IMG/VR virus record: IMGVR_UViG_3300043543_000361
Location: 1-24,681 of that record
Strand: one strand, 5' to 3'
Length of the DNA stretch: 24,681 nucleotides
From: a virus
How positions within the stretch are numbered: position 1 is the first letter of the stretch; the number at the start of each line of letters is the position of its first letter. The notes beneath the pieces are model-generated. The model saw only the letters and a program-made list of their open reading frames with translations. It had not been told where the DNA came from and ran no database searches. Of the stretch, positions 12,867-21,308 are shown piece by piece. The translations under genes were made by a program, and so were the position numbers.

Positions 12867-16634
<3,768 letters not shown>

Positions 16635-16638
<4 letters not shown>

Positions 16639-18672: not shown

Positions 18673-19345
18673 AACCTCGCTCGATCTCACAGAGGAAAAC
18701 ACCGCGCCGCCTCTCGCCTGCGCCGCCGTCTGGATCGAGGGCGAGAGCGATGCCCACTTTTTCTACTCTGCCGAAGAAGACGACCCTGCGGCCGAGATGA
18801 GCAAAAGCGACACCATGGCGCTTGTACATTTTTTGCTTGAGTGCACGAGAAGCGGCGACGTGGTCGTGACGTGGAACGGAGCGGCTTTTGATTTTCGCCT
18901 GCTCGCCTCCGCATCGGGGCTACACAAAGAATGCGTAGAGGTGGCGCGCAACCACGTCGATCTGATGTTTCTTGTCGTCTGCGCCCGTGGTCATTTTCTT
19001 TCGCTCGACAAAGCCGCACGAGGATTCGGCCTTGACGGCAAATCCGAGGAGGCGACAGGGAAAGAGGTCCCGGCGCTGTGGCGCAGCGGCGAGACGGCGC
19101 AGGTGTTGCGCTATCTGGCGCAGGACGTGCGCACGACGCTCGACGTTGCGCTGAGGGTGAGGGAAACAAGAAAGCTGCGCTGGCTCAACAGCAAAGGGAA
19201 GAAGAACCAAATCCCCGTCGAATTTCTAACGGTTGAAGAGGCGCTAAGGATGCCCCGGCCTCAGGTGCCGGAATGGCTTAAAAACCCCGTCCGGCGCGAG
19301 GACTTACTTACGTGGATGATGGACGATGAAGAAAAAACAATCTGA
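18647..19345 (+). CDS. DEDDy-type 3'-5' exonuclease (RNase H-like)
   Basis: A 232-residue DnaQ-like nuclease. Exo I is AFDLET with Asp7 and Glu9; exo II is TWNGAAFDFRLL with Asp82; exo III is YLAQD with Tyr156 and Asp160, giving the DEDDy arrangement of PolB-related exonucleases. The C-terminal ~60 residues (KGKKNQIPVEFLTVEEALRM and so on) are outside the core. It starts inside the RHH gene (26-base overlap) with only a weak GAGAAAA site, so coupling is likely, and it overlaps the membrane protein by 20 bases. No polymerase is attached in the window, so it could be a proofreading partner, a recombination exonuclease, or a nuclease against host or rival DNA. Confidence 0.85.
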   Translation: MKLIAFDLETSLDLTEENTAPPLACAAVWIEGESDAHFFYSAEEDDPAAEMSKSDTMALVHFLLECTRSGDVVVTWNGAAFDFRLLASASGLHKECVEVARNHVDLMFLVVCARGHFLSLDKAARGFGLDGKSEEATGKEVPALWRSGETAQVLRYLAQDVRTTLDVALRVRETRKLRWLNSKGKKNQIPVEFLTVEEALRMPRPQVPEWLKNPVRREDLLTWMMDDEEKTI

Positions 19346-19799
19346 GCGCCTCTATCCGCAGCGAACAAAAAACTTTGTCGCCCCAGCCCCTCCAGCACGC
19401 AAAAACGAACGCATCGACGTGCTGCAGGAGAAAATGCCTCCATCGCTGTACGCACCGGTCGAACTCAAAAGCATAGCGCAGAGCGAGATCGACCGGGCGC
19501 TGGGCTTCACGATTGGCACCGCAACGCTTGCGGGCATTGTCGGTCTGGGCGCCGTACTGATTGCCGCCGTAGGCTGGAAGGTTCCATTGATCAGCGTCAC
19601 GGCGTTGACGATCTTCTTCGTCGTTGCGGCGCTGGTATGGCTGAGCGCATGGACTTTACACACGCTCAGCAGCGAAGGGGGGATCGGATTGATGTCCGTA
19701 CTGCTGCAGTATCGCCTGCTGCGCCACGAGCAACGGGCGAGGCTGGAGCGCATCAGATATTTGCTTGAGGAAGAAGACGAGTCAACTACTCCCCCCTAA
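19326..19799 (+). CDS. Two-helix membrane protein with IS-derived C-terminus
   Basis: A 157-residue protein. After a basic, Pro-rich N-terminus (~60 residues) it has two membrane segments, about 61-83 (GFTIGTATLAGIVGLGAVLI) and 87-112 (PLISVTALTIFFVVAALVWL), then a charged cytoplasmic tail (YRLLRHEQRARLERIRYLL). The last codons (...DESTTPP, then TAA at 19797-19799) lie within the right-end hairpin of an IS605-type relic, so the original C-terminus was probably replaced when the element inserted. It overlaps the exonuclease gene by 20 bases. No family is recognised. Membrane topology is inferred from hydrophobicity. Confidence 0.7.
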   Translation: MKKKQSERLYPQRTKNFVAPAPPARKNERIDVLQEKMPPSLYAPVELKSIAQSEIDRALGFTIGTATLAGIVGLGAVLIAAVGWKVPLISVTALTIFFVVAALVWLSAWTLHTLSSEGGIGLMSVLLQYRLLRHEQRARLERIRYLLEEEDESTTPP

Positions 19800-19940
19800 A
19801 GGGGGAAGCTTGTCCCTGGCGCTACGCCGCTGAGGGCGCGTCCGAGACGTGTGGCTGGCTGACAGCAGCCGGCGGGAAATGTTCACCGCCGCGACGTGGT
19901 CTGCGAACCCGGAGTGCCCGCAAGACACACAGGAGAAGGG
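19782..19940 (-). pseudogene. tnpB: Relic of IS605-family tnpB 3' end with right-end hairpin
   Basis: On the minus strand the frame ending at the TGA at 19782-19784 reads PFSCVSCGHSGFADHVAAVN followed by ISRRL. This is the TnpB C-terminal signature: the second CxxC of the zinc ribbon, the RuvC-III Asp (ADxxAAxNI) and a basic helix. The 3' end, AAGCTT then CCCCCT-AA-AGGGGG and AGTAGTTGA, is the usual IS200/IS605 right end, where the omega guide RNA overlaps tnpB. Everything upstream of the Phe at about 19937 is missing, so it is a deletion remnant of about 50 codons. Stems CGGCGG/CCGCCG (19872-19893 region) and GGCTG/CAGCC are retained, so RNA structure may persist. It lies antisense between two phage genes. 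Confidence 0.8.
19792..19805. repeat. Right-end hairpin of IS605-type element
   Basis: CCCCCTAAAGGGGG is an almost perfect palindrome (6-base arms, AA centre). On the minus strand it follows AAGCTT and precedes AGTAGTTGAC, as in IS605 right ends. The TAA stop of the plus-strand membrane gene is inside it. Confidence 0.7.
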
Positions 19941-19949
19941 ATCTTGAAA

Positions 19950-20459
19950 ATGAACCGCACGATTTACACAGAGCTTTTGCGCAGCGAAGCCATCGCTTCC
20001 ACCCCTCCGCCCGAACGCCACACGCCACTGCGCCAGGTGGCGCTGAAGCTGACGCGGCGGGGCGTCATGGCGGCAAAGGCGGAGTTGGCAAACGCTGCGT
20101 TGCTTGCGTTCATAGAAATTCTTTTCGACGTCGATGAAGATCAAAACTATGCCAACATCGACGCCGACGGCCGCATCCTGCTGCCTGCGCCGTGGGGGCG
20201 CAACGGATCCGTGCACTGGGGCTTGCGTCGCAGCGAACAGCGCGCGCTGTCATGGCTGCTGCGCAGGCGGATGGAGACAGAAGAAAATCCGCTGTTCATT
20301 TACGACGACGAGACCCGGAGCTGGTACGTCGGTCGAGGATACGCCAGGCGGTCGGCGCTGGCTTACCTGAAGGCATTCCCAGTGACAGTAGGCGAGTGGC
20401 GGACCGCCTGGCGCGCAACCGGTAGCACCTGGGGCGGGCCGCAGCTGGAAGGAGAGTAG
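19950..20459 (+). CDS. Unknown phage protein, 169 residues
   Basis: Last gene of the rightward operon. I take the ATG at 19950 (MNRTIYTELLRSE); the longer frame from GTG 19896 runs through the tnpB relic and has no ribosome binding site. The AGGAGAAGGG that serves as its ribosome binding site is inside the relic (19931-19940). The protein is soluble, with a helical N-terminal half (QVALKLTRRGVMAAKAELAN) and a C-terminal half with aromatic segments (NPLFIYDDETRSWYVG, LAYLKAFPVTVGEWRTAWRA). No motif is recognised. Function unknown. It is followed by a strong terminator. Confidence 0.65.
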   Translation: MNRTIYTELLRSEAIASTPPPERHTPLRQVALKLTRRGVMAAKAELANAALLAFIEILFDVDEDQNYANIDADGRILLPAPWGRNGSVHWGLRRSEQRALSWLLRRRMETEENPLFIYDDETRSWYVGRGYARRSALAYLKAFPVTVGEWRTAWRATGSTWGGPQLEGE

Positions 20460-20552
20460 AAATAAATAAGCCGTGGGTGTGCAAGGAAGCGGAATGGGGG
20501 GTGAAACGAGCATGAAGATAACGCAGCACGGGGGTGGGCTGGGGTAGAAACG

Positions 20553-20588
20553 AAAAGCCTCGGAGAATTTTTTCTCCGAGGCTTTTTT
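20553..20588. terminator. Bidirectional intrinsic terminator
   Basis: A perfect inverted repeat, AAGCCTCGGAGAA (20555-20567), loop TTTT, TTCTCCGAGGCTT (20572-20584), with A-runs before and T-runs after. It ends the rightward operon and the leftward gene at 20599-20844. Positions 20460-20552 hold no credible gene. Confidence 0.93.
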
Positions 20589-20598
20589 GCTTACGGGA

Positions 20599-20844
<246 letters not shown>

Positions 20845-20858
20845 TTTTGCCTCCTCTC

Positions 20859-20898
20859 AAAAAAAAGCTCCCCCCCTGGGGTTTCCAGGAGGGGGGAG
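20859..20898 (-). terminator. Intrinsic terminator or attenuator between two small genes
   Basis: On the minus strand CTCCCCCC...CCAGG...GGGGGGAG forms a strong hairpin followed by eight T (20866-20859). It ends the 20905-21207 gene. The AGGAGG of the next gene begins four bases later (20855-20850), leaving no room for a separate promoter, so the second gene may depend on read-through. Confidence 0.85.
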
Positions 20899-20904
20899 TA
20901 CATA

Positions 20905-21207
<303 letters not shown>

Positions 21208-21257
21208 GTTTCCTCCTTGCCCCTCCCCCCGGCTCTCAGGGCTTGCCAGGTGTATGG

Positions 21258-21286
21258 TTGACTTATCGCTTGCAACTCTATAATAT
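21258..21286 (+). promoter_or_regulatory. Rightward promoter P1 of the primase gene
   Basis: TTGACT (21258-21263), 17-base spacer, TAATAT (21281-21286). The spacer contains the 12-base operator-like element. Its -10 overlaps that of the leftward promoter, so the two cannot be occupied together. Confidence 0.65.
21263..21274. promoter_or_regulatory. Operator-like element, copy 1
   Basis: TTATCGCTTGCA on the plus strand, TGCAAGCGATAA on the minus. It sits in the spacer of P1 and over the start site of the leftward promoter. The same 12 bases recur exactly at 24670-24681, at the same distance downstream of that promoter's -10. The flank GCTTGCAAC is a partial dyad around TGCA. Confidence 0.6.
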
Positions 21287-21308
21287 CATAATTTTAGCGA
21301 TTTGTCGA
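21280..21308 (-). promoter_or_regulatory. Leftward conserved-type promoter for 20905-21207
   Basis: On the minus strand TCGACA (21308-21303), 17-base spacer, TATTAT (21285-21280) with an extended -10 TG. It is one of three promoters in the window with the same layout. Confidence 0.65.

Follow-up and report, generated by a model that had tools for sequence, protein, structure and literature searches.

TnpB guide RNAs are derived from the 3' end of tnpB together with the right end of the element, the guide itself being taken from the flank (PMC8612924). In the omegaRNA of ISDra2, the tip forms a pseudoknot with a loop located far upstream (PMC10097598). Phages can domesticate TnpB, as seen with TldR, phage-carried nuclease-dead TnpB repressors with a guide RNA (PMC13418256). 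Free-standing IS605 stem-loops have been reported at the 3' ends of genes in Borrelia plasmids (PMC2775950), and these are the nearest precedent for the locus described here.

The sequence analyzed (the window) is an entire virus record of 24,681 bases. Between two of its phage genes lies, in antisense, a 166-nt relic of the 3' end of an IS200/IS605-type tnpB element, whose parts are half of the TnpB zinc finger (the second half, with the RuvC-III Asp), an omegaRNA scaffold and a right-end tip, GTTGAC. Zinc finger, scaffold, hairpin and tip follow one another in the order and at the spacing seen in IS200/IS605 tnpB elements such as ISDra2 (PMC8612924, PMC10097598), which the relic also resembles in the pseudoknot between tip and upstream loop and in a guide position adjoining the tip. 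Unlike these elements, it has no left end and no tnpA, close to 90% of tnpB is missing and the remaining frame is broken. Like the Borrelia stem-loops, it is an end sequence without its genes at the 3' end of an unrelated gene; however, it is longer, retains the whole scaffold and part of TnpB, is antisense, resides in a phage and reaches the likely ribosome-binding site of the next gene. In further contrast to the Borrelia case, it was found in a single contig. TldR loci share with it a TnpB-derived guide-RNA scaffold in a phage, but TldR keeps the protein that the relic has lost. Finally, the HEARO RNA of IscB elements (RF02033) has a 5' hairpin that is roughly the reverse complement of the relic's right end, although the relic locus has neither HEARO body nor iscB and the window contains no HEARO match.

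Results

Identity and extent of the relic

The relic and its protein-coding part comprise the following features. L002 is another virus contig and R1 a covariance model, both described below.

19781 to 19946, minus strand: whole relic (PF07282, R1, alignments with 58 TnpB loci, absence from L002)
19869 to 19946, minus strand: TnpB codons in the original frame, QDPFSCVSCGHSGFADHVAAVNISRR, with the second CxxC and the RuvC-III Asp (comparison with 63 relatives)
19869 to 19871, minus strand: one-base deletion that shifts the TnpB frame (alignments A5 and A6, translations, R1 alignment)
19822 to 19824, minus strand: TAG, probably the stop of the original TnpB, which follows AAVSQPHVSDAPSAA in the shifted frame (translations)

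The translation of minus-strand 19785-19949, which begins FQDPFSCVSCGHSGFADHVAAVNISRR, matched PF07282, the TnpB zinc ribbon. The match lay at 19878-19946 (E=4.5e-6 in a search across the whole record) and covered profile positions 38-60 of 60. With the relic as a single protein it scored 21.7 bits (E=2.4e-4), which is under the gathering score of 26.3 because half of the domain is missing. By tblastn, annotated plasmid TnpBs were 60-65% identical to the relic, and TnpBs from virus contigs reached 73%. The Phe is conserved in 62 of 63 relatives, and both Cys and the Asp in all 63. Homology to TnpB extends to the Gln codon at 19944-19946 (Q in 50/63 and R in 9/63 relatives) and the right tip GTTGAC ends at 19781, matching intact relatives. 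The relic is present at this place far beyond chance.

The initial annotation had placed the last ~50 codons of a TnpB, with its CxxC and RuvC-III Asp, at 19782-19950. The place was right, and the C-terminal codons, a CxxC of the zinc ribbon and the Asp that follows it are all present; however, the relic spans 19781-19946, only the second CxxC of the four-Cys finger remains, and only about 26 codons run in the original frame before the deletion, so that there is neither a full-length intact frame nor a complete RuvC. The left end and Y1 TnpA of a complete IS200/IS605 element were likewise not found: R1 detected no second end in the window, and the Y1_Tnp profile had no match in the record (the control was positive in 10 of 14 genomes). 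A PF07282 search located no further TnpB zinc ribbon elsewhere in the record.

Two lesions are visible. Everything upstream of the second half of the zinc finger has been lost, and one G is missing at 19869-19871, where relatives read CCGGGC and the relic CCGGC. The latter deletion falls at the base of scaffold stem 1 or immediately 5' of it, and the stem remains paired. In relatives the TnpB tail reads AAVNQPxVS, and in the relic the corresponding AAVSQPHVSDAPSAA and stop occur only in another frame. As the deletion shifts the frame, the end of the 55-codon open frame (LPPLGGSS, then stop) is not TnpB's own.

A search of genome contigs with the relic protein found one distant TnpB (L004), and none was found among 299 genomes of the phylum of L004, which may not be that of the host. 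The searches brought up no intact element so closely related that the relic could be dated by it, or its left end and target-adjacent motif read off; these two features and the family of the lost transposase were therefore deduced from the subfamily.

The guide-RNA scaffold

A subfamily set of 58 virus loci was fetched starting from three full-length TnpBs (alignment A3). Most of these loci share a 3' layout of zinc finger, a stem with loop GTCAA or GTAAA, a second stem (GTCTCGG...CCAGGGACAAGC in the closest relatives), a hairpin with loop TTTAG or TTCAG at the right end, and a tip, GTTGAC or GTTTAC. The relic agrees with this layout in order, spacing and tip:

19781 to 19883, minus strand: omegaRNA scaffold core, three helices with a pseudoknot that joins the right-end tip to the loop of stem 1 (R1, covariation in relatives)
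19788 to 19809, minus strand: right-end hairpin, loop TTTAG (comparison with relatives, R1)
19765 to 19780, minus strand: would-be 16-nt guide, antisense of membrane-gene codons (position beside the right end, as in ISDra2; PMC8612924)

The covariance model R1 was built from 19 intact relatives, with the relic left out. It matched the relic over the entire model (positions 1-105 of 105) at 73.8 bits (E=1.7e-24), recovering the scaffold helices, hairpin and tip of an omegaRNA and right end, and had no other match in the window. Across the 58 sources, the score of the relic fell among those of intact elements; of the elements outside the model set, L041 alone scored higher. In the 19 relatives, changes on both sides were seen in 18 of the 22 pairs of the three helices, and 88.9% of helix cells pair, compared with 66.6% in shuffled and no more than 46% in slid versions. 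The pseudoknot also covaries among relatives (GUCAA/UUGAC, GUAAA/UUUAC and GUCAU/AUGAC). In the relic it is GUCAG/UUGAC, with one G-U pair, and 20 of the 22 helix pairs stand. To judge by its sequence, the guide-RNA scaffold is intact. The proposal of an antisense tnpB/omegaRNA relic was thereby borne out by PF07282, by the TnpB alignments and by the covariance search.

The scaffold had been thought the best-kept piece of the relic, which did not hold: the zinc-finger half scored 55.8 bits in the family HMM, above 42 of 56 leave-one-out relatives, and so also scores like those of intact elements. That the protein and RNA parts are about equally well kept points to a recent event more than to selection on the RNA.

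Searches of viral contigs with a DNA pattern for the right end, and with a back-translated ADHVAAVNIS pattern, gave no matches, both patterns being too strict. An Rfam scan of the locus found no relevant family. Short R1 matches of 12-16 bits, to the part of the model representing the right-end hairpin, were seen ~65-90 nt upstream of tnpB in five loci (L007:752-776, L008:748-769, L025:1410-1433, L036:1428-1451 and L043:1413-1436), and are probably left-end hairpins, with the orientation of the right-end hairpin. The phage contig of L044 carries a second such TnpB 3' end, again with a scaffold (L044:64-199; 39.2 bits with R1), upstream of the fetched TnpB.

The flanking genes and an empty site

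The plus strand of the locus carries three features that involve the relic:

19326 to 19799, plus strand: membrane protein gene, with its final five codons (STTPP) and its stop, at 19782-19799, derived from the right end; the L002 homologue ends differently
19931 to 19935, plus strand: AGGAG, which lies antisense of the codons for TnpB Phe-Ser-Cys and is the likely Shine-Dalgarno sequence for the next gene
19944 to 20459, plus strand: next gene, start TTG 19944 or ATG 19950, no assigned function, 70% identical to its L002 homologue

In L002 both genes are present with no insert between them, and the stop of the membrane gene overlaps the start of the next gene. The proteins of the two phages are 51% (membrane protein) and 70% (next gene) identical. 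Two conserved points are 249 nt apart in the window and 89 nt apart in L002, a difference of 160 nt, and the alignment score against L002 was 220.5 without 19782-19946 and 85.0 with it. R1 had no match in L002. The empty site expected in a related phage was thus found, with a different C-terminus on its membrane protein (SMMDGERWHEQ, then stop, versus STTPP in the window), and the observation that would have spoken against a relic, an IS-free relative conserving the same bases as plus-strand protein, was not made in L002.

The membrane gene ends GAG, then TCA ACT ACT CCC CCC TAA, the last 18 nt (19782-19799) lying within the right end. Because L002 lacks the insert and ends differently, these five codons and the stop were donated by the relic, as the initial annotation had claimed. 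It had also put the AGGAG of the next gene inside the relic, and the motif is indeed antisense of the zinc-finger Phe-Ser-Cys codons; it belongs to the relic because similarity to TnpB continues as far as the Gln codon at 19944-19946. Upstream of the next gene, ACAGGAGA (19929-19936, -7.4 kcal/mol) is the strongest Shine-Dalgarno match, and its end is 7 nt from TTG 19944 and 13 nt from ATG 19950. In other genes of this phage such a match mostly lies 2-8 nt before the start, and TTG 19944 is therefore favored. The AGGAG of the relic is thus likely to be the ribosome-binding site of the next gene. As the homology reaches the Gln codon antisense of TTG 19944, the relic may have supplied the start codon too.

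The membrane protein used alone as query found no relatives, and L012, considered as a further relative, was rejected as a chance likeness. Phages of Thermus and Meiothermus make up most of the best-covered relatives of the large terminase (15397-16638; 28-32% identity). No match to it was present in the L002 record; what the two phages have in common includes the gene pair but not this gene.

The minus strand

It had been suggested that an omega-like RNA could still be made from the relic. A search of 19300-21300 for sigma-70-like promoters, the only type sought, found none on the minus strand. Such RNAs are processed from the tnpB mRNA, which no longer exists here, and the record holds no other TnpB zinc ribbon and no Y1 TnpA; the suggestion is unsupported. 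Nothing supports a minus-strand product of the relic, and it would appear that none is made. Further downstream, between the plus-strand genes and the minus-strand genes at 20599-21207, a strong hairpin at 20553-20587 has runs of T on each strand. It looks like a two-way terminator, which would limit antisense read-through into the relic.

Discussion

The best explanation for these observations, to which a probability of about 0.85 is assigned, is that of an insertion followed by deletion and loss of frame, with the plus strand using the resulting scar by default. A TnpB-encoding IS200/IS605-type element would have inserted antisense to two neighboring genes, at the point where they meet; these genes overlap in the related phage. 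A deletion ending beside the start of the downstream gene would then have taken away the left end, tnpA (if there was one) and nearly 90% of tnpB, and the loss of one base would subsequently have broken what remained of the TnpB frame. We infer this order from the anatomy of the locus. The remaining 166 nt would have no product of their own, and their use by the plus strand would be incidental: the membrane gene would read five codons into the right end and stop at the TAA in the right-end hairpin, and ribosomes would most likely start the downstream gene from the AGGAG antisense of TnpB Phe-Ser-Cys. Three points count against this explanation. For a scar, the scaffold is remarkably well preserved, and no more than two lesions are visible; a single insert-free relative was found, at 51-70% protein identity, which places the ancestral junction only approximately; and the searches gave no intact element of close kinship.

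An alternative is that the scaffold is a kept orphan guide RNA: a minus-strand omegaRNA would be loaded onto a TnpB encoded by the host or by another element, or would cover the next ribosome-binding site as an antisense RNA. The scaffold outscores all but one intact element outside the model set, the helices (20/22 pairs) and the pseudoknot, with its one G-U pair, are kept, and the frame-breaking deletion leaves stem 1 unharmed. However, the minus strand shows no sigma-70-like promoter, the tnpB mRNA is gone, no TnpB is present in the record, and the would-be guide has no match in L002 at up to 4 mismatches. The zinc-finger half, which is useless for an RNA-only role, is equally well kept, which argues for youth rather than selection on the RNA. 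A functional guide RNA is therefore unlikely, and a working orphan guide RNA from this relic is unsupported. It is quite doubtful, too, that the phage shed tnpB and kept an omegaRNA made from the minus strand that borrows a TnpB in trans. If it did, the RNA could take a guide from the phage's own gene junction and cut relatives with an empty site, or could be an antisense RNA covering the ribosome-binding site of the next gene.

An assembly artefact, in which an element from part of the population or from elsewhere was misjoined into the contig, is very improbable. The relic does come from a single metagenomic contig, and no second contig with it was found, but both neighboring genes read through unbroken, the element has a one-base deletion of its own, and the right joint falls just before the downstream ATG. 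That the plus strand instead represents the 5' end of an IscB-type guide RNA (HEARO) with a left end can scarcely be credited and was rejected, since the 88-91% identity of 19780-19812 to a HEARO RNA 5' end (L006, an Rfam match) and a similar stretch of L005 stops after ~33 nt, HEARO (RF02033) had no match at E up to 5 in 19300-20600, TnpB codons and a whole TnpB-type scaffold adjoin on the minus strand, and R1 matches the relic.

The likeness to HEARO arises because the end motif is nearly palindromic and common to both RNA types in opposite senses. The reverse complement of the HEARO 5' region is matched weakly by R1 (27.6 bits for L006:2002-2079 and 24.9 bits for L005:170-247, both minus strand), and the L005 stretch sits in another plasmid. 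On these alignments, the left end of IscB-type elements and the right end of TnpB-type elements appear to share one end motif, in opposite senses.

Insertion and decay of an IS200/IS605-type element, the preferred reading, is an ordinary kind of event, here with unusually clear anatomy. The locus is a well-documented single case of such a scar being absorbed by a compact phage genome, in which it splits an overlapping gene pair, giving five codons and a stop to the first gene and a probable ribosome-binding site to the second. A by-product of the analysis is a usable scaffold model for this TnpB subfamily, including its covarying pseudoknot. The case also shows that loss of the nuclease gene can leave a complete TnpB guide-RNA scaffold behind, and searches that do not require a nearby tnpB may therefore find more such orphans.
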